Shown: piece after piece, positions 54 to 8,176 of the stretch
How the letters are laid out: each line of letters starts with the position of its first letter
Numbering within the stretch: the first letter of the stretch is position 1
Source of the DNA: Gammaproteobacteria bacterium
GTDB taxonomy: Bacteria; Pseudomonadota; Gammaproteobacteria; Pseudomonadales; Azotimanducaceae_A
Direction: 5' to 3'
Length of the DNA stretch: 8,276 nt
NCBI GenBank assembly: GCA_028819775.1
Contig: JAPPKV010000464.1
Location: 2,371 to 10,646, forward strand
Position numbers and translations under genes: made by a program
Notes under the pieces: model-generated
Told to the model about the DNA's origin: nothing
Seen by the model: the letters and a program-made list of their open reading frames with translations, nothing else
The model's database searches: none

Positions 54-2117
54 GTGACAGACCCGATTCAACCAGCCGCCGACGGCGACCGCATCGCCGC
101 CGTTCGTTTTCGCCCAACGCCAACGGCCACGGCCAAGCGACGCGCCTGGCTGAGCCCGTGGCGCCTTGCCGGGTTTGTCGTCCTGGCGGGTGTGGTGTGG
201 TTCCTGTGGTTCATCTTCACGGCCAAGAGCGTCCGCCTCGAAGCAACCCCCGCCTCGGCCGTCGTCGAGGTGGACGGCGGATTCGCCTTTCGGCTCGGCG
301 ACATCTACCTATTGCGCGAAGGGGACTACCGCATCCGCGCCCGCGCGGAGGGATACGTCGACTTCATCCGCCGGATCGGCATCGGCAGCGATCGCAACCA
401 GACCATCCCGTTCACGCTGACGCCGTTGCCCGGGAGGGTTACGTTTGCGATCGACCCGCCCGGTGCAACAGTGGTCGTGTCGGGTGGCGACGACCTCCGC
501 GGTACCGCGCCGGTCACCCTCCGCGTGCCGGCGGGTCCGCAAGCGGCCCGTGTCAGCCATCCGCGCTACGAAAAGGGTATCGTCGAATTCGAGGTGACCG
601 GCCGGGACCAGGCCCAGACCGTGACCCTCGCCCTACTGCCCAATTGGGCGGACGTCACCCTGCCCACGACGCCATCTCGTGCCCAGGTGCTCATCGACGA
701 CGATCTCTCCGAGACCACCACACCCGGTCCGATACCGATACTTGCCGGCGAACACCGCATCGTCGTCGCGTTGCCCGGCTACAAGCCGTGGACGGACATT
801 ATCTTCGTCACGGCACGGCAGCCAATGACCCTGCCGCCGATCGTCCTCGACAAGGCCGACGGCACACTTGCGATCGAGTCGTCTCCAAAGGGCGCCGGGG
901 TGACCGTTGGCGGCGTCTATGCCGGCGTCACACCGCTCACCGTCGGCCTCGACGCGGACAAACCGCTCGCCGTCAGCGTTTTCAAGGTCGGCTACGCACC
1001 CCGAAATCTCACCGTCGAACTGGCATCCGGGCAACGTCGGGCAATCGACGTGACGCTGACCGCGCTAACAGGCGACCTGTCGGTGAAGACCCGCCCGAAG
1101 GATGCCGAGCTGTGGATCGACAACGAGCATCGTGGGCTGGCGAGCGGCGTTTTCACCCTCGCGGCCGTGCCGCACACGGTGGAGATCAGGAAGGAGGGAT
1201 ATGCCGGCTTCCGCAAGACCGTGGTGCCCCAGCCAGGACTCACCCAGGAGCTCAACGTGCAGCTTCTGACGTTGGCCCAGGCGCGCCTCGAGCGACTCAA
1301 GCAGGTGCGAACCACCGGGCAGGGCCACGAGCTGGTCCTCTTGAGCCCGGGCCGGCTCCGGATGGGCGCCTCCCGCCGAGAGCCCGGTCGTCGCGCCAAC
1401 GAGGTGATCCGAGACGTCGAACTCACCCGGCTGTTCTACCTATCCCGACACGAGGTCACCAACGGCCAGTTCCGCGTATTCGCCAAGGGCCATTCGTCGG
1501 GACAGTTCGAGAACCGTGATCTCGACCACGACACCCAGCCGGTCGTCGGCGTGTCCTGGCACGAGGCCGCGCTCTATTGCAACTGGCTGTCGGAACAAGA
1601 CGACCTCCAACCGTTCTACCGGGAGGAGTTCGGCAAGATCGTCGGCTTTGACTCGACCGCTCTCGGCTACCGGCTCCCCACCGAGGCCGAGTGGGCGTGG
1701 GCCGCCCGGCATGTCGGCGGGACGAACCTATTGCTATTCGCGTGGGGGGATCAACTTCCGCCGCCCGACAGGCACGGCAACTACGCCGACCAGTCGGCAG
1801 CGCATACGGTCGGTCGGATCATCTTCGGCTACAACGACAACTACATCACCAGCGCACCGGTGGGGACGTTCCCGCCAAACGACAAGGGAGTCTACGATCT
1901 CGGCGGCAATGTCGCGGAATGGGTGCACGATTTCTACGAGATTCCCAGCGGCAGTGCCGTGGTCGATCCGCTTGGACCACGCCAGGGCGACTACCATGTG
2001 ATTCGCGGCGCAAGCTGGATGCATGGAACGGTTTCAGACCTCCGACTGTCCGGTCGCGACTACGGGATCGATGGTCGCCCGGATGTGGGCTTCAGGATCG
2101 CAAGGTTCGCGGAGTGA
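54..2117 (+). CDS. Membrane-anchored PEGA-repeat protein with C-terminal SUMF1/FGE-sulfatase-like domain
   Basis: 687 residues. A basic N-terminus of about 38 residues precedes one membrane helix (about 39-56), which places the rest in the periplasm. Residues 60-408 form about five tandem PEGA-like repeats of roughly 70 residues (60-126, 127-197, 198-269, 270-339, 340-408), each with a P-x-x-A-x-V start and most with a G-Y near the middle. Residues about 422-686 are a SUMF1/FGE-sulfatase fold, with RLPTEAEWAWAAR at 540-552, FAWGD at 562-566, DLGGNVAEW at 615-623, VIRGASW at 649-655 and DVGFRIAR at 677-684. True formylglycine-generating enzymes use two cysteines shortly after the RGxSW motif. 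Here that stretch has none, and the only cysteine in the protein is C509, so oxidation of sulfatases is unlikely. A binding or scaffold role is inferred. The GTG at 54 is the first usable start after the in-frame stop at 30-32, with a weak GGA six bases upstream. Confidence 0.9.
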   Translation: MTDPIQPAADGDRIAAVRFRPTPTATAKRRAWLSPWRLAGFVVLAGVVWFLWFIFTAKSVRLEATPASAVVEVDGGFAFRLGDIYLLREGDYRIRARAEGYVDFIRRIGIGSDRNQTIPFTLTPLPGRVTFAIDPPGATVVVSGGDDLRGTAPVTLRVPAGPQAARVSHPRYEKGIVEFEVTGRDQAQTVTLALLPNWADVTLPTTPSRAQVLIDDDLSETTTPGPIPILAGEHRIVVALPGYKPWTDIIFVTARQPMTLPPIVLDKADGTLAIESSPKGAGVTVGGVYAGVTPLTVGLDADKPLAVSVFKVGYAPRNLTVELASGQRRAIDVTLTALTGDLSVKTRPKDAELWIDNEHRGLASGVFTLAAVPHTVEIRKEGYAGFRKTVVPQPGLTQELNVQLLTLAQARLERLKQVRTTGQGHELVLLSPGRLRMGASRREPGRRANEVIRDVELTRLFYLSRHEVTNGQFRVFAKGHSSGQFENRDLDHDTQPVVGVSWHEAALYCNWLSEQDDLQPFYREEFGKIVGFDSTALGYRLPTEAEWAWAARHVGGTNLLLFAWGDQLPPPDRHGNYADQSAAHTVGRIIFGYNDNYITSAPVGTFPPNDKGVYDLGGNVAEWVHDFYEIPSGSAVVDPLGPRQGDYHVIRGASWMHGTVSDLRLSGRDYGIDGRPDVGFRIARFAE

Positions 2118-2458: not shown

Positions 2459-3256
2459 ATGAGAAAAACCCTACCTTTCGACTTCATCTACCAGGTGGTT
2501 GCGCTTGTGGTCGCCGTCATCCTGGTGCACCTGGTCTATGTCACGGTAATCCGCCCCAACGCCGACACGATCCTCGAGGTGCAGGAGCAGCGAGCCCAGG
2601 TCGAAGAGGACTTCGTTCCGGACCGGTCCCTTTACGTCGTGCTGCACAACTTCGAACAGGAGTGCTGCTTCATCCTGATGTTCTGGGCGATGGCCATCAT
2701 GGGGCTCAAGACCCGGAACTGCCTCCGGGAGCGCCGCATGCTCCAGAATCCGTTCGTGGAGGTGACCGAGGGCATGAGCATCCTGCCCGAGGACACGCGC
2801 GAGTATTCGCGTCCGCTTCAGGCCCTGCCCGAGTCCACCCGGAACAACCTCCTGCCGAGAGCGTTGCTCGCCGCACTGCAGCGATTCGCCTCCACGAGCA
2901 ACGTCCAGGACGTCTCCAACGCGGTACGAGCCGTATGCGACACCGAGTCCGACCGCCTCGACAGCGAACTCGCCATGGTGCGCTACATCGCCTGGGCGAT
3001 CCCTTCCATCGGGTTCATCGGCACCGTACGCGGCATCGGTGCCGCCTTAGGCCAGGCGTACCGCGCCGTCGAGGGCGACATTTCCGGCGTCACGGCGAGC
3101 CTAGGCGTTGCCTTCAACTCGACCTTCGTCGCACTCGTCATCAGCATCGTCGTCATGTTCCTGATGCACCAGTTGCAGCTTATCCAGGAACGCCTCGTCC
3201 TCGACACGCAACACTACTGCGACGACTACCTGATACGTCACATGCAGGTGCGTTGA
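2459..3256 (+). CDS. MotA/TolQ/ExbB-family proton channel subunit
   Basis: 265 residues and an inner-membrane protein. Four hydrophobic segments are visible: about 10-31, 66-84, 172-198 and 212-238. A cytoplasmic-type loop of about 87 residues separates helices 2 and 3. This layout is MotA-like; ExbB and TolQ have three helices. Helix 3 carries P182-S-I-G-F-I-G-T-V-R-G-I-G194, which matches the ExbB/TolQ signature P-x-L-G-L-x-G-T-V-x-G, including T189. Helix 4 has S221-T222 in the place of the conserved channel threonine. Proteins of this family form pentamers that convert proton flow into movement around a dimer of single-pass TolR/ExbD/MotB partners, and the two Asp-containing single-pass proteins encoded at 4561 and 5646 are the obvious candidates. 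A 35-residue periplasmic loop (32-65) is rich in Glu and Gln. The start lies 15 bases after the previous stop and has no clear Shine-Dalgarno. The family call is firm; the cargo is unknown. Confidence 0.88.
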   Translation: MRKTLPFDFIYQVVALVVAVILVHLVYVTVIRPNADTILEVQEQRAQVEEDFVPDRSLYVVLHNFEQECCFILMFWAMAIMGLKTRNCLRERRMLQNPFVEVTEGMSILPEDTREYSRPLQALPESTRNNLLPRALLAALQRFASTSNVQDVSNAVRAVCDTESDRLDSELAMVRYIAWAIPSIGFIGTVRGIGAALGQAYRAVEGDISGVTASLGVAFNSTFVALVISIVVMFLMHQLQLIQERLVLDTQHYCDDYLIRHMQVR

Positions 3257-3257
3257 C

Positions 3258-4568
3258 ATGCTAGTGCTCGACATCAACGACACCGAGATCAGGCTGACGC
3301 GCGACGGCGAGGAGCTCTACCGGCAGCCGGGCGTGGCGGACGTCGCCCCCAAGAACACGGTACTCGGCTACGAGGCACGCGCGCGTTCCCGACTTCACCC
3401 ACAGCAGTCGCACAACGAATTCTGGCAGCGCATGAACGGCGATCCCGTCACGCCTCGCGGCCGCGGCGTGGCCAATCAAGCGGACCTCGTCTATCTGCAG
3501 TTGCAGGAACTGCGTGCCGCCACGGGGGAAAAACGCCCCGCCGTGGTCGTGGTGGCGCCTTCCGCGGTTACCAACGAGCAGTTCGCCGTTCTCCTCGGAA
3601 TCGCGGCCGAGGCCGGCTTCGACGTGCGCGCCATCGTCGATGCCTCCGTAGCGGCTGCCAGCCGAGAGACCTGGGACGGCTCCTGCGGAGTTGTCGATGT
3701 CTCTCTTCAACGCGCGACCCTCGCCCGGGTCGAACGTGTGGATACCGACGACGGGCCGATCATGCGCCGTGCCGCCGTCGACGAGATCCCCGCCGCGGGA
3801 TTCGCGCCACTCCTCGAGGGTTGGATCGATGTCGTCGCCGACCGATTCGTGGACGGCACGCGCTTCGATCCGTTGCGGATCGCCAACACCGAACAACAGG
3901 TCTTCGATCAACTCCTTGCCGGGATCGACGCCGGCGCGGCGGAATTCGCCATCGAGGTCGACCATCACGACGTGAAACGCCGGGTCAGCGTGTCACGCCA
4001 CGCCCTGGCACAGAAGTCGTCGCAACGCTACGAACTGTTTGCGCGCGCGCTGGGCAGTGCCGGAACTCTCGCCGTCAGCCATCGAGTGCTCCGCCTGCCG
4101 GGCTTTGCCGGTTTCCTCCAGCAAGCGGGCCACCAGCTTCTACCGCTCACCCCGGACACCATCGATGTCGCAGTTCGGGATCAGGCCGAGCACATATTGC
4201 CGGGGCCGGGAGACGCCGGCGGCGCACCCGGTGCCCGCCTGGTTACCTCCTTGCCGGCCCCGGCAAGCGCGACCTCGAGCCCCACGCCGGCCAGGTGGCC
4301 CACCCATGTGCTCTGCGAGGCGCTTGCCATCCCGCTGGTCCATGACGTCAGTGCCAACGAGCATCCGGCGTTTCGACCCGGATCGCCGACCTTCCGGATC
4401 AGGCGCGGCGAGAACGGTATCTCGGTGGTGCCGGCACCGGACTCAGGCATTTCCTTGAACGGCATCCCCATCGACTTCGAACATCCTGCCGCGGCTGGGG
4501 ATACCATCGGCAGCGGCGATCTCGCGTTCCACCTGATCGCCGTCGTCGACGGAGAGACCGATGGCTAG
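3258..4568 (+). CDS. Degenerate Hsp70/actin-fold ATPase-like protein with C-terminal FHA-like segment
   Basis: 436 residues with no membrane segment or signal peptide, so cytoplasmic. The order of elements follows an Hsp70/actin-fold nucleotide-binding domain: LVLDINDTEIRL (2-13) where Hsp70 has its first phosphate loop, AVVVVAPSAVTNEQ (95-108) and GFDVRAIVDASVAAAS (120-135) resembling the Hsp70 strand, helix and 'NEPTAAA' stretch, then CGVVDVSLQRATLARV (143-158) at the second phosphate loop. VLRLPGFAGFLQQ (277-289) and LTPDTIDVAVRDQAEH (297-312) match the late 'GGSTRIP' and 'PDEAVAxGAA' elements. The glycine-rich phosphate loops are not preserved, so ATP hydrolysis is doubtful. A Pro/Ala-rich linker (about 316-346) leads to residues 376-430, where ISLNGIPIDF, GDTIGSGDLAFHLI and the preceding strands resemble an FHA fold. 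The start is one base after the channel gene's stop, with AGG at 3246-3248. The fold is inferred from motif order only; it could instead be an FtsA/PilM-type actin homologue. Confidence 0.72.
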   Translation: MLVLDINDTEIRLTRDGEELYRQPGVADVAPKNTVLGYEARARSRLHPQQSHNEFWQRMNGDPVTPRGRGVANQADLVYLQLQELRAATGEKRPAVVVVAPSAVTNEQFAVLLGIAAEAGFDVRAIVDASVAAASRETWDGSCGVVDVSLQRATLARVERVDTDDGPIMRRAAVDEIPAAGFAPLLEGWIDVVADRFVDGTRFDPLRIANTEQQVFDQLLAGIDAGAAEFAIEVDHHDVKRRVSVSRHALAQKSSQRYELFARALGSAGTLAVSHRVLRLPGFAGFLQQAGHQLLPLTPDTIDVAVRDQAEHILPGPGDAGGAPGARLVTSLPAPASATSSPTPARWPTHVLCEALAIPLVHDVSANEHPAFRPGSPTFRIRRGENGISVVPAPDSGISLNGIPIDFEHPAAAGDTIGSGDLAFHLIAVVDGETDG

Positions 4569-5649
4569 GCAGACCGGCCGGCGGTTCAACGTGTTCTCGC
4601 TGGCATTCCTCGATGTGATGTCGTGCGGGTTCGGCGCCGTCGTGCTCGTGTTTCTGATCATCAACCACCGTATCGACGACGAGGCGAAGGATGTCGACAG
4701 GGATCTGCTCTCGGAGTCCCGCCTGCTCGACTACCAGATCCTGACCGGCGAGAAAGACCTGGTGGACCTGCAGACACTCGTGGAGGACGCCAGAAAGCGG
4801 GTCGCCGACGCCAACCGGCAATTGCTCGCGAAGATCGCCGATCGCGACCGGCACAGGGAGGAACTCGAAGAACTCGATGCGAAGACCGTTGCGGAACGCG
4901 AAAGCGTCGAAGATCTGACGTCCGACGTCGAGGATCGGGAACAGGACGTGAAACGCCTCCAGGAGGAGGAGCAACGGCTCGCCGGCACTAGGCTGCTCGA
5001 GGTCAAGGGCGAAGGCGACCGCCAGTATCTCACCGGCCTCTACGTCGGCGGCCGGCACATCCTGATTGCGCTCGATGCCTCGGCCAGCATGTTGGACGAG
5101 ACGATCGTCCAGGTGATACGGCGTCGCAACATGTCCCGGGAACGGCAACTGAACGCGCCCAAGTGGGAACGAGCCCGGAATACGGTCAGGTGGTTGGCTG
5201 CCCGAACCCCCTTGGACAGCAACTTCCAGATCCTGCTCTATGGCGACGAGGCGAGATTCCTCCTGCCGGAGACGGGTTGGATTCCGGCTACCGACGTGGG
5301 AATCCTAGACGAGGCCCTCGACACGCTCGACGACACGGTACCCGCCGGCGGCACCAATCTCGAGGGCTTGTTCGATGTCGTCGGCGCAATGCGTCCCCTG
5401 CCCGACAACGTCTTCCTGGTGACCGACGGCCTGCCGACCCGATCCAACAGGAAGCCGCGCTCCTCCACTGTCGACGGCCGGCAACGGGTCAGGCTGTTCA
5501 CCGACGCCGTCAGGCTGTGGCCAGCCGGTGTTCCCGTCAACGTGATCATGTTCCCGATGGAGGGAGACTGGCAGGCGTCCGCGGCGTATTGGATTCTCGC
5601 CGCGAACAGTGGCGGCACGTACATGTCGCCGTCGAGGGACTGGCCATGA
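4561..5649 (+). CDS. Single-pass coiled-coil VWA-domain protein A (TolR/ExbD-like membrane anchor)
   Basis: 362 residues. One N-terminal membrane helix (about 14-34) begins SLAFLDVMSCGFGAVVLV; D18 sits near the start of the helix, as the proton-carrying Asp does in ExbD, TolR and MotB. A charged, Glu/Arg/Asp-rich coiled coil follows (about 40-142). A VWA domain spans about 165-358, with a complete MIDAS set: D172-A-S-A-S176, T265 in GGTNLEG, and D289 in VTDG. The topology puts the coiled coil and VWA domain in the periplasm, where the domain would bind a metal and a ligand. The start overlaps the previous gene by 8 bases and has GGAG at 4551-4554, six bases upstream. It is paralogous to the next gene in helix, layout and domain. 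VWA and anchor are clear; a motor-partner role is inferred. Confidence 0.88.
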   Translation: MARQTGRRFNVFSLAFLDVMSCGFGAVVLVFLIINHRIDDEAKDVDRDLLSESRLLDYQILTGEKDLVDLQTLVEDARKRVADANRQLLAKIADRDRHREELEELDAKTVAERESVEDLTSDVEDREQDVKRLQEEEQRLAGTRLLEVKGEGDRQYLTGLYVGGRHILIALDASASMLDETIVQVIRRRNMSRERQLNAPKWERARNTVRWLAARTPLDSNFQILLYGDEARFLLPETGWIPATDVGILDEALDTLDDTVPAGGTNLEGLFDVVGAMRPLPDNVFLVTDGLPTRSNRKPRSSTVDGRQRVRLFTDAVRLWPAGVPVNVIMFPMEGDWQASAAYWILAANSGGTYMSPSRDWP

Positions 5650-6623
5650 TCCGCCGACGCGGTCTCGAGGAGATCGGGCTGTCGTTCCTCGACGTCATCT
5701 GTTGTGGTTTCGGCGCGATCATCCTGCTCTTGATGATCATCAAGACCGTCGAACCCATCCTCATCGAGGATCCCATGATCACTCGGGAAGGACTGGTGCA
5801 GAAACGCGAACAGCTCAACGAGATCCTCGGCGAAACCCGAATCCTGAGACGCCAACTGACCGACGAGGAGCGCCAACTGACGCGTGAACTCGCCGAACTT
5901 GCCAAAGTGGAGCGCGACATCAACGACATCCTCGGGCAGTATCGCGCCACGGCGGAGGAGGCGGAGTTCCAGCAATCGACGAGGGAGCGCCTCGTCCAGG
6001 CGAAGCAGTCCCTCACCGCCGAAATGGAGCGTCTGCTCGGACTCGACTTCGTGCGCGCCACGAACACGATCGGCGGCGTCACGGTGGACAGCGAGTACAT
6101 CATCTTCGTCATCGATACCTCCGGCAGCATGCAACAGTGGGCGTGGGGCGCCGTGCAGCGAAAAGTCCGGGAGGCGCTCGACATCTATCCCCGGGTCAAG
6201 GGCATCCAGGTCATGAACGACATGGGCGACTACATGTTCCCGGAGACCGCTGGACGCTGGATTGAAGACACCCCCGGCCGACGGCGCGATATGCTGCGCG
6301 TCCTCGCGGGTTGGTCCCCGAACTCGAACTCGAGCCCGGTGGAGGGCATCCAACAGGCAATCAACACCTACTACTCCCGCGACCGGAAAATCAGCATCTA
6401 CGTCTTCGGCGACGATTTCTCCAAGAGGTCGATCGAGCGGGTGGTCGACACCGTCGACCAGGTAAACCGCGTCGTCGAAGACGGCAGCCGCAGGGTGCGG
6501 ATTCACGCAGTGGGCTTCCCCGTGCGCGTCGGGGCCAACTCCGGCAACCGGTTTGCGGCCCTGATGCGCGAACTGACGTTCCGGAACGACGGAACCTTTG
6601 TCGGGCTGTCGACTTTCGAGTAG
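5646..6623 (+). CDS. Single-pass coiled-coil VWA-domain protein B (TolR/ExbD-like membrane anchor)
   Basis: 325 residues from ATG 5646, which overlaps the previous stop as ATGA; GAGGGA at 5634-5639 is six bases upstream. The reading frame stays open much further upstream, but that part only shadows the previous gene. The membrane helix (about 12-33) begins GLSFLDVICCGFGAIILLL, with D16 in the TolR/ExbD position. A coiled coil covers about 45-132. The VWA domain (about 148-323) has MIDAS D157-T-S-G-S161, a likely third ligand at S229 or S230, and D256/D257 in VFGDDFS. It lacks the insertion that follows the MIDAS strand in protein A and is shorter overall. The two proteins share the anchor motif much more closely than the rest of the sequence, so that helix is probably under specific constraint to fit the channel. 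A heterodimer of A and B is a reasonable inference. Confidence 0.88.
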   Translation: MIRRRGLEEIGLSFLDVICCGFGAIILLLMIIKTVEPILIEDPMITREGLVQKREQLNEILGETRILRRQLTDEERQLTRELAELAKVERDINDILGQYRATAEEAEFQQSTRERLVQAKQSLTAEMERLLGLDFVRATNTIGGVTVDSEYIIFVIDTSGSMQQWAWGAVQRKVREALDIYPRVKGIQVMNDMGDYMFPETAGRWIEDTPGRRRDMLRVLAGWSPNSNSSPVEGIQQAINTYYSRDRKISIYVFGDDFSKRSIERVVDTVDQVNRVVEDGSRRVRIHAVGFPVRVGANSGNRFAALMRELTFRNDGTFVGLSTFE

Positions 6624-6680: not shown

Positions 6681-6703
6681 AAGGTGGCGCAAGGATGGAT
6701 ACG

Positions 6704-7447
6704 ATGCGTCCCATAGGCTTAGGGCGTACGGGTTGGGCTTGTCCCGTCCCGAGCCAGCAAAACTGCGCGTGCCGATTCGGGCGACGTCACATTCTGGCGG
6801 GTGGCTTCGCCGCGCTTCTCCTCGGTGGCTGCCAAGGCGGCGCTTCCATTACCGTCGACGCCACCGTCCCGAGTCCCCTGGTCGACCCCATTCGGGCAGC
6901 CATGGGAGTCTATTTCGAGGATGACCTCGTCACCTACGTCCACGAAGAGGAGTTGGAAGACTACGGCCCCTACCGCATCGACATCGGCGCATCCCAGGCA
7001 CCCGTCTTCGTACGCGTGTTCAATGCGATGTTCGAGAATCTCGTTCCGATGGAGCCTGCGGATCAGGGGACGAACCTCCCCGCCGGCCCCATCCGCTTCG
7101 TCGGGACCGATGGCTCGTCCCCGGTCGTGGACGGCATCATCGCCCCGTCCATCGAAGAGGTGCAGTTCGCGATTCCCGATCAGACCGGCGGCGACTTCTA
7201 CGAGGTCTGGATTCGCTACAAGCTCACTCTGTTCGACGCGGGCGGGAACAACGTAGGTGAATTGCCCTTGATCGGATATGGGAAGGCCAACGAGCGCAAC
7301 TTCGGGCAGTTGGGCCAGCGGACGCCCGCGCTCCACGAAGCAACCATCTGGGCCCTGCGCGGCGCAGCGGCGGAGCTATCGTTACGATTCCAGGACCAGG
7401 ACCAAGTCCGAAAATGGCTCGCCGCCATCGGGGTTCAGCCGAGGTAA
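6704..7447 (+). CDS. Predicted Tat-exported lipoprotein of unknown function
   Basis: 247 residues from ATG 6704, chosen because AAGGA at 6691-6695 then lies 8 bases upstream. ATG 6695 (250 residues) is the alternative, but the same AAGG would abut it. The N-region is long and carries twin arginines in F-G-R27-R28-H-I-L-A-G-G, followed by a hydrophobic stretch and the lipobox L-L-G-G-C43. That combination suggests a Tat-dependent lipoprotein, most likely outer-membrane bound. The mature part has no cysteine beyond C43 and is moderately acidic. Strand-like segments at 163-192 (YEVWIRYKLTLFDAGG, then ELPLIGYG) and a closing helix (about 211-240: EATIWALRGAAAEL, then VRKWLAA) recall small envelope lipoproteins of the LptE or ABC-transport-auxiliary type. 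The resemblance is too loose to name it. It precedes a second lipoprotein gene by 12 bases. Confidence 0.8.
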   Translation: MRPIGLGRTGWACPVPSQQNCACRFGRRHILAGGFAALLLGGCQGGASITVDATVPSPLVDPIRAAMGVYFEDDLVTYVHEEELEDYGPYRIDIGASQAPVFVRVFNAMFENLVPMEPADQGTNLPAGPIRFVGTDGSSPVVDGIIAPSIEEVQFAIPDQTGGDFYEVWIRYKLTLFDAGGNNVGELPLIGYGKANERNFGQLGQRTPALHEATIWALRGAAAELSLRFQDQDQVRKWLAAIGVQPR

Positions 7448-7459: not shown

Positions 7460-8176
7460 ATGAAGGTCTCACACGTCACGCGCTACCGGAAACGAGGAGT
7501 GGCGGCCACGGTTTGCCTTGTTGCCGGTCTGTCATCGGTGGGATGCGTCCAGACGACCGTCCAGGAAGTGCGTCAGGCGGATACGCAAATCGGAACCGGC
7601 GAGTCCATCGTCATCCTGTCCCGTAAACACAAGACCCAGGGAGAGACCGAAGACGACTTCGTGACCTGCGTCAGCGACTCCGTCAACCGCGGCGACGGCG
7701 CCTTGCCGATCTTGAGCGAACGCGAGTTCGTGGATGCCACGTTTCCCTGGTTCGAACCCCGCACCGCCCCGCTCAACATGGAGGATCTCGCAACGGTCAT
7801 CAACCGTCCGCTCATCGCGAGGCGAATCGACGAAATCGGCGTTCGCTACCTGGTCTGGATCGAGGGGACCACGGAACGCACCGACGAGAGCGGGAGCCTC
7901 AACTGCACGTTCTTCTCCGGCGGCATACCGGCCTGCTTCGGCTTCCTATCCTGGGAGAGCGGATCCGACTACGAGGCCTCGGTGTGGGATGTCGAACGGG
8001 GCATGACCGTGGGTACGTTGAGCTCCGAGGCCGCCGGTACCAGCTTCGTCCCCGCCGTCGTGGTACCGATCCCCGTCATCGCCCGGGTCCGCGAAAAGGC
8101 ATGCGCCAACATGTCGGATCAGATCAAGACGTTCATCCACCCGACCTTGGCGTCAGTGCCGGTCCCGGAGGGGTAG
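7460..8176 (+). CDS. Predicted lipoprotein of unknown function
   Basis: 238 residues. A basic start (R9, R11? region RYRKRG at 8-13) and hydrophobic segment lead to a lipobox S26-V-G-C29, so the product is a Sec-type lipoprotein. The mature part has cysteines C70, C149, C159 and C214, enough for two disulfides in the periplasm. Recognisable stretches are EIGVRYLVWIEG (125-136), GGIPACFGFLSWE (154-166), and a hydrophobic stretch FVPAVVVPIPVIARV (196-210) that could be a buried strand pair or a membrane-associated hairpin. I do not recognise the family. The strong Shine-Dalgarno and the 12-base gap indicate it is an operon partner of the preceding lipoprotein gene, and the two may act together in the outer envelope. 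No link to the VWA motor genes is visible except adjacency and common direction. Confidence 0.85.
   Translation: MKVSHVTRYRKRGVAATVCLVAGLSSVGCVQTTVQEVRQADTQIGTGESIVILSRKHKTQGETEDDFVTCVSDSVNRGDGALPILSEREFVDATFPWFEPRTAPLNMEDLATVINRPLIARRIDEIGVRYLVWIEGTTERTDESGSLNCTFFSGGIPACFGFLSWESGSDYEASVWDVERGMTVGTLSSEAAGTSFVPAVVVPIPVIARVREKACANMSDQIKTFIHPTLASVPVPEG

Follow-up and report, generated by a model that had tools for sequence, protein, structure and literature searches.

A TolQ-like channel and two VWA-domain proteins as a candidate proton-driven motor within a conserved gene cluster

Can two VWA-domain proteins take the place of ExbD or TolR as partners of a TolQ-like channel? The question is raised by a stretch of 8,276 nt (contig JAPPKV010000464.1 of assembly GCA_028819775.1, positions 2,371–10,646 of the forward strand; hereafter the window), which carries eight genes, all on its plus strand. 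A gene for a TolQ/ExbB-like channel subunit (2459–3256) and two genes for VWA-domain proteins, designated VWA1 (4561–5649) and VWA2 (5646–6623), lie there in one tightly packed block, and the window covers most, not all, of a conserved, uncharacterised gene cluster. The likely product of this block is, in our view, a proton-driven motor akin to MotAB, ExbBD and TolQR, in which two different but homologous VWA proteins replace ExbD/TolR, a reading that is supported, not proven.

A motor of this kind, consisting of TolQ and a heterologous vWA pair without TolR, was already predicted by Williams-Jones et al. (2025; PMC12204202). Their section on this second vWA family describes membrane-tethered proteins that occur mostly as heterologous pairs, co-occur tightly with tolQ in the absence of a syntenic tolR or exbD, and keep an aspartate which AlphaFold 3 places inside the threonine ring; it gives neither a deletion phenotype nor a biological function. 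Likened by description, the window agrees with this TPH-vWA/TolQ motor, exemplified there by Idiomarina, in its tolQ-like gene co-occurring with a heterologous vWA pair, in the lack of tolR/exbD in the cluster, and in an aspartate-bearing helix without the SHLS motif, which was found in neither VWA1 nor VWA2. Idiomarina was not among the 120 matches listed in each of two VWA protein searches. The window is a further example of a motor kind already predicted, and its layout and mechanism are not new; the statement in the original prediction, that no characterised motor of such a layout was known, was overtaken by this publication and holds only in so far as the published section assigns no function or phenotype. 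In the literature found (titles and abstract starts) there was no experimental study of such a VWA/TolQ system, and the word vWA is absent from the available text of a 2026 review citing the prediction (PMC12905483). What is new here is the wider conserved cluster and, with it, the first pointers to motor partners.

Conservation and co-occurrence of the channel and the VWA pair

The channel subunit (265 residues) matched PF01618 in Pfam at 8e-15, with 55.2 bits against a curated cut-off of 22.9, and carries the motif PSIGFIGTVRGIG at 3002–3040. Its residues T189 (codon 3023–3025) and T222 (3122–3124) were each invariant in 81 of 81 sequences, namely the window and relatives covering at least 80% of the query; relatives of lower coverage were excluded from this and all following conservation counts. 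Residues 98–214 of Escherichia coli TolQ corresponded without gaps to channel residues 142–258 in a single-sequence match (E 0.021) that is weak alone and served for the residue register only, and T189 and T222 thereby fell on TolQ 145 and 178, which we take to be the pore threonines of TolQ.

Both VWA proteins begin with a single membrane segment opening on FLDV. In VWA1 the hydrophobic segment lies at 4606–4662, with FLDV from residue 16 and the Asp18 codon at 4612–4614, and in VWA2 the membrane helix lies at 5679–5747, with FLDV from residue 14 and the Asp16 codon at 5691–5693. F16, L17 and D18 of VWA1 were invariant (73/73), as were F14, L15 and D16 of VWA2 (70/70). The original prediction, which had described a channel gene in a tight block with two single-pass FLDV proteins, was thus correct in coordinates, motifs and residue numbers, and the aspartates on whose conservation it hinged proved to be conserved throughout the counted sequences. 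The metal ion-dependent adhesion site (MIDAS) motif was equally constant: D172-x-S174-x-S176 together with D289 occurred in all 73 VWA1 sequences and D157-x-S159-x-S161 in all 70 of VWA2. VWA1, in which the FLD helix is followed by a coil region and the VWA domain, matched Pfam VWA_2 at 1.2e-5, and the AlphaFold model of VWA2 consists of a helix at residues 12–34, a second helix at 47–131 (85 residues, 5784–6038) and a VWA domain (about 6093–6620) for which VWA fold matches were found, so that both the fold and the MIDAS motif expected of a VWA domain are at hand. Among the best 120 of 7999 scored VWA2 relatives, FLD was present in all and DxSxS in 119; a second listing gave FLD in 116 and DxSxS in all of the 120 matches listed, the four relatives without FLD starting inside or past the motif. 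A second, more divergent VWA2 copy was observed in two genomes of one genus (G646:C60:50371-51303 and G696:C5:88290-89231).

The N-termini of VWA1 and VWA2 are homologous to each other (hhalign, 99.2%), and both genes were present in 74 of 76 loci in which gene content and order were judged. These 76 were retained from 112 stretches with a channel match, stretches that reached less than 6 kb ahead of the channel gene or less than 3.2 kb beyond it being dropped, and include one locus counted twice (L001 and L111). The homology and the joint occurrence are consistent with a heterodimer.

As a set of 80 loci, the best 80 of 585 channel relatives in named genomes, had been selected by TolQ similarity, co-occurrence was assessed on genome draws instead. 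In the class draw, which yielded 274 of 300 requested genomes, the VWA2 profile matched in 21 (E 1e-6) and the channel profile in 24 (E 1e-20), 20 of the latter at 1e-70 or better. All 20 strong-channel genomes had VWA matches and fell within the 21 VWA genomes, two of them (G380 and G391) owing their VWA support solely to a short contig with a VWA1-type match; in the 21st (G383) the VWA gene lies 1.5 kb from a distant relative of TolQ. None of the 21 VWA genomes lacked a TolQ relative; VWA genes standing without any TolQ-like gene, which the original prediction had named as evidence that would speak against it, were therefore not encountered in this draw. The VWA2 profile matched in 44 of 194 genomes and 23 of 97 genera of the order draw (E 1e-20), and in 16 of 299 genomes of the phylum draw (E 1e-3), of which 13 belong to one family (f33) that is marked only 'same phylum' and is therefore presumably of another class. 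One phylum-draw match (G031, E 3.6e-4) was rejected as spurious, as it covered only profile positions 44–137, that is, the coil. With this genome removed, a channel gene was found along with VWA genes in 14 of 15 genomes, in one of these 14 (G237) with VWA2 on another contig; the fifteenth is G125, described below.

A gene for ExbD (PF02472) was found inside the cluster in none of 15 genomes searched. All 15 possess ExbD elsewhere, with 1–8 matches each, the nearest about 6 kb outside the cluster (G434). The VWA proteins gave no Pfam match to ExbD at E 1, and no MotB-type Pfam match was obtained among the window proteins, a genome-wide MotB search not having been made. The window thus shares with TolQR and ExbBD the PF01618 channel, the two pore threonines and one aspartate where the partner helix begins, and differs in that the partner carries its VWA head on a long coil, is encoded by two different genes and has no detectable helix homology to ExbD.

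Weighing the motor against other readings

Several observations weigh against the VWA proteins acting as a motor axle. When their N-termini (VWA1, 73 rows and 48 columns; VWA2, 70 rows and 46 columns) were compared with 30 ExbD N-termini by hhalign, no significant match resulted (3.7% and 1.6%) and the aspartates did not fall in register; the likeness of the Asp helices to ExbD may therefore be convergent or too short for detection. The resemblance of the channel to solved TolQ chains is weak, being limited to the match at E 0.021 mentioned above, and its profile (A3) found no solved chain at E 0.01. The VWA2 model has a predicted local distance difference test score (pLDDT) below 50 at residues 1–16, the aspartate included. 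The distance from the aspartate to the MIDAS is unequal between the partners, usually 154 against 142 residues, and the coil lengths of VWA1 and VWA2 covary weakly (rho 0.34 over n=70, without correction for relatedness), so that an in-register heterodimer is not established. Of the exceptions to co-occurrence, G125 of the phylum draw showed no channel gene and nothing of the VWA pair but a piece of VWA2 at the edge of a contig, G328, G331 and G556 had only distant TolQ relatives and no VWA match at 1e-6 (in G328 a VWA match at 1.5e-5 lay on another contig), and in G501 the channel gene (L129) and the VWA pair (contig C5) were on different contigs. The central claim of the original prediction, that the VWA proteins are the Asp-carrying partners, accordingly gains from the invariant aspartates, the two pore threonines, the co-occurrence and the absence of ExbD from the cluster, and found no support in the profile comparison with ExbD; the adhesive role which it assigned to the VWA domains gained no support either.

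The presence of ExbD elsewhere in all 15 genomes leaves room for the VWA proteins to be side-bound force transducers, in the manner of TolA or TonB or of the first vWA family of PMC12204202, with a separate ExbD or TolR from elsewhere in the genome serving as the axle; that paper indeed describes a related vWA family in which the topology is TolA-like and an SHLS motif is present. We regard such an arrangement as unlikely, because no ExbD match fell within the cluster in any of these genomes, and because the VWA1 and VWA2 helices of the window carry the invariant aspartate in place of SHLS and are two paralogues rather than one. Slightly less likely still is a scaffold or sensor in the envelope, static or gated by protons, that is built from the channel and the VWA proteins and in which the aspartate serves assembly rather than proton-driven motion. 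The many scaffold-type modules in the cluster (TPR, PEGA, FGE, coils and an Hsp70 fold) would suit such a role, as would the lack of a measured activity in the literature found (titles and abstract starts), whereas the joint invariance of both pore threonines and both aspartates is what a working proton path would be expected to show.

The gene for an Hsp70-fold protein that adjoins the VWA genes could also be taken to mean that the VWA heads are cytosolic, with reversed topology, and partner a chaperone-type ATPase, much as AAA ATPases are the partners of several VWA proteins in bacteria. This we consider very improbable: the Arg/Lys-rich N-termini ahead of the helices favour an N-in, C-out orientation, no AAA ATPase match was found among the window proteins or six scanned proteins of the upstream families, and the Hsp70-fold gene itself is missing from 10 of the 76 judged loci. 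An assignment to Zorya or another anti-phage system was likewise not upheld, as PADLOC on 10 proteins returned a single weak match, over the VWA1 coil (E 0.0056). We thus retain the proton-driven motor, which builds on the observed gene content, gene order, residue conservation, co-occurrence and ExbD-free cluster, and on the folds predicted for VWA2 and the Hsp70-fold protein; from these we infer stoichiometry, proton conduction, rotation and ligand.

The wider cluster

The motor genes sit within a cluster of up to 12 genes. Upstream of the gene for an FGE/PEGA protein, four families recurred in the 80 loci, which by their record titles are mostly from Pseudomonadales and other Gammaproteobacteria: a transmembrane (TM)/TPR protein in 71 loci, a lipoprotein in 62, a lipoprotein rich in Pro, Gln and Ser in 57 and, likewise in 57, a TPR protein whose N-terminus is signal-like. 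The last of these lies at the upstream end of the cluster; in L001 (L001:1608-3077) it ends in a TonB_C domain (E 9.1e-8, above cut-off), and the match of its L022 counterpart was weaker and did not reach the cut-off. A core of seven genes (Q-rich lipoprotein, lipoprotein, TPR protein, FGE/PEGA, channel, VWA1 and VWA2) was found in the same order and on the same strand in 71 of the 76 judged loci, in 63 of which the Hsp70-fold gene was also in place. Of the five exceptions, L016 had no upstream genes that could be found, L129 contains the channel gene alone, L130 has the channel gene behind VWA2, the Q-rich lipoprotein of L131 was too weak a match, and L137 holds a distant TolQ in another type of cluster. 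The section text and legend on the TPH-vWA/TolQ motor name no FGE/PEGA, Hsp70-fold, TonB_C, small-protein or lipoprotein partners, and 'sulfatase' and 'PEGA' have no occurrence in the main text of that paper (PMC12204202).

The FGE/PEGA protein of the window (54–2117; 687 residues) consists of an N-terminal membrane anchor, with a hydropathy peak at residues 33–51, five PEGA stretches and a C-terminal FGE-sulfatase (SUMF1-like) domain, the Pfam matches being 3.6e-44 for FGE-sulfatase and 3.1e-36 for PEGA. Its gene was present in 74 of 76 judged loci, and a single column, C509 (68/75), held Cys in more than 30% of the relatives. A proton motor beside an FGE-domain protein is also known from GldLM with GldK/GldN of type IX secretion in Bacteroidota. 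The window differs from it in that none of its proteins matched GldM or GldN, and in that its FGE protein, unlike GldK, has an N-terminal anchor and PEGA repeats; membership of the GldK family was rejected, as the NCBIfam score of 98.9 bits is far below the cut-off of 350.

Between the FGE/PEGA and channel genes lies a gene for a small acidic protein of about 97–107 residues (2120–2443; the start is uncertain, either GTG at 2120 or ATG at 2153), with an N-terminus that by eye is signal-like, an acidic linker and a conserved C-terminus, SED..xPFPVDI-stop, the last 12 codons and the stop lying at about 2405–2443. The tail pattern S[EA]D..[FY]P[VI]DI-stop was found in 72 of 102 loci having both FGE and TolQ; the 30 loci without it include all nine scored f33 loci (L113–L121) and ten of the first 80 loci. 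The protein gave no Pfam match over cut-off and no NCBIfam match at E 1. Binding by VWA/MIDAS domains commonly involves an acidic residue of the ligand, and we would guess that the acidic PVDI tail is a candidate MIDAS ligand.

The product of 3258–4568 (436 residues) has, in its predicted structure, the fold of an Hsp70 nucleotide-binding domain, with structure matches mainly spanning residues 1–319 and a small C-terminal beta domain, conceivably an FHA domain, at about 350–430; none of its Pfam matches exceeded the cut-off. Gly-rich phosphate loops like those of Hsp70 are not apparent in it; this presumably cytosolic protein is therefore possibly a pseudo-ATPase. Its gene was not found in the judged f33 loci (L114–L117 and L121) nor in L126, L133 and L134.

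Downstream of VWA2 follow two putative lipoproteins whose folds were without assignment, d250 (6695–7447, LGGC lipobox, start at 6695 or 6704) and d238 (7460–8176, SVGC lipobox). They were found in 61 and 59 of the 76 judged loci, respectively, in each case on the opposite strand in 9, and a simple pattern recognized a lipobox-like sequence in 52 of 71 d250 relatives and 51 of 68 d238 relatives. In ten loci (L036, L041, L049, L051, L059, L066, L069, L075, L077 and L079) the d250/d238 genes do not follow VWA2 but occupy the opposite strand, 7–9 kb ahead of the channel gene. The fetched stretches of f33 contained the core genes, with neither the Hsp70-fold gene nor d250/d238. Among 72,556 plasmid records, three partial TolQ matches were obtained, each with less than 80% of the query covered.

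A second type of TolQ cluster was noticed in L136–L139, with one or more FHA proteins and a TolQ relative (LIPTLGFIGTV), a PP2C phosphatase in L137–L139 and trypsin-like proteases in L137 and L138, the FHA, PP2C and protease names being assigned by eye. These FHA-TolQ-FHA-PP2C clusters have in common with the window the TolQ relative and, in L138, a VWA protein that has SALDLFASAMGAF at the membrane helix; they differ in having these neighbours instead of FGE/PEGA and lipoproteins, and in having one VWA gene in L138 and none found in the L137 stretch. Among the 120 matches listed for the L138 VWA protein, 98 had LD[LVIMAF] within the first 70 residues.

A possible mechanism and its meaning

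In the motor as we envisage it, five channel subunits would probably ring one VWA1 and one VWA2 helix, each of which would place one aspartate at the T189/T222 ring, and the passage of protons would rotate or switch the VWA pair. Each helix would run on into a periplasmic coil, in the VWA2 model of 85 residues or roughly 12 nm, and the coils would lift the two VWA heads toward the peptidoglycan and the outer membrane. With their metal-site motifs intact, the heads would probably grip an acidic ligand, for which the small PFPVDI-ending protein, the FGE/PEGA protein and the lipoproteins are candidates within the cluster, and by this grip the motor would do work on envelope partners, comparable to that of GldLM on the GldK/GldN ring or of Tol on Pal. 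An action of the VWA arms on cluster-encoded envelope partners is suggested by analogy, as the periplasmic domain of GldM contacts GldK according to the relevant passages of PMC8986121. The Hsp70-fold protein could be a regulator or assembly factor in those lineages that have it.

Taken to its full extent, this would amount to a separate trans-envelope energy system encoded by as many as twelve genes that are inherited together. A VWA heterodimer bearing the aspartates would rotate as an axle inside a TolQ-like ring, and its metal-dependent heads would catch the C-terminal PVDI tail of the dedicated small protein of the periplasm or some other acidic ligand; assembly or engagement would be under the control of an Hsp70-like pseudo-ATPase in the cytosol, and proton flow would be converted into catch-and-release work on outer-membrane lipoproteins. 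We put forward this complete scheme tentatively, as possible and still doubtful.

The task of a proton-driven envelope motor is known in only a few cases. The candidate described here was found, by its VWA2 profile, in 44 of 194 genomes drawn from one order. Its likely partners are named by the wider cluster, which the published text on the TPH-vWA/TolQ motor (PMC12204202), as far as cited above, does not mention, and the function of the motor thereby becomes testable. As loci occur in named Microbulbifer species, Exilibacterium tricleocarpae and Marinibactrum halimedae, and a VWA2 relative in Arenicella xantha, the motor could be put to the test by ordinary removal of its genes. If the complete scheme is true, these bacteria would possess an energy system that ranks alongside Tol-Pal or type IX secretion.

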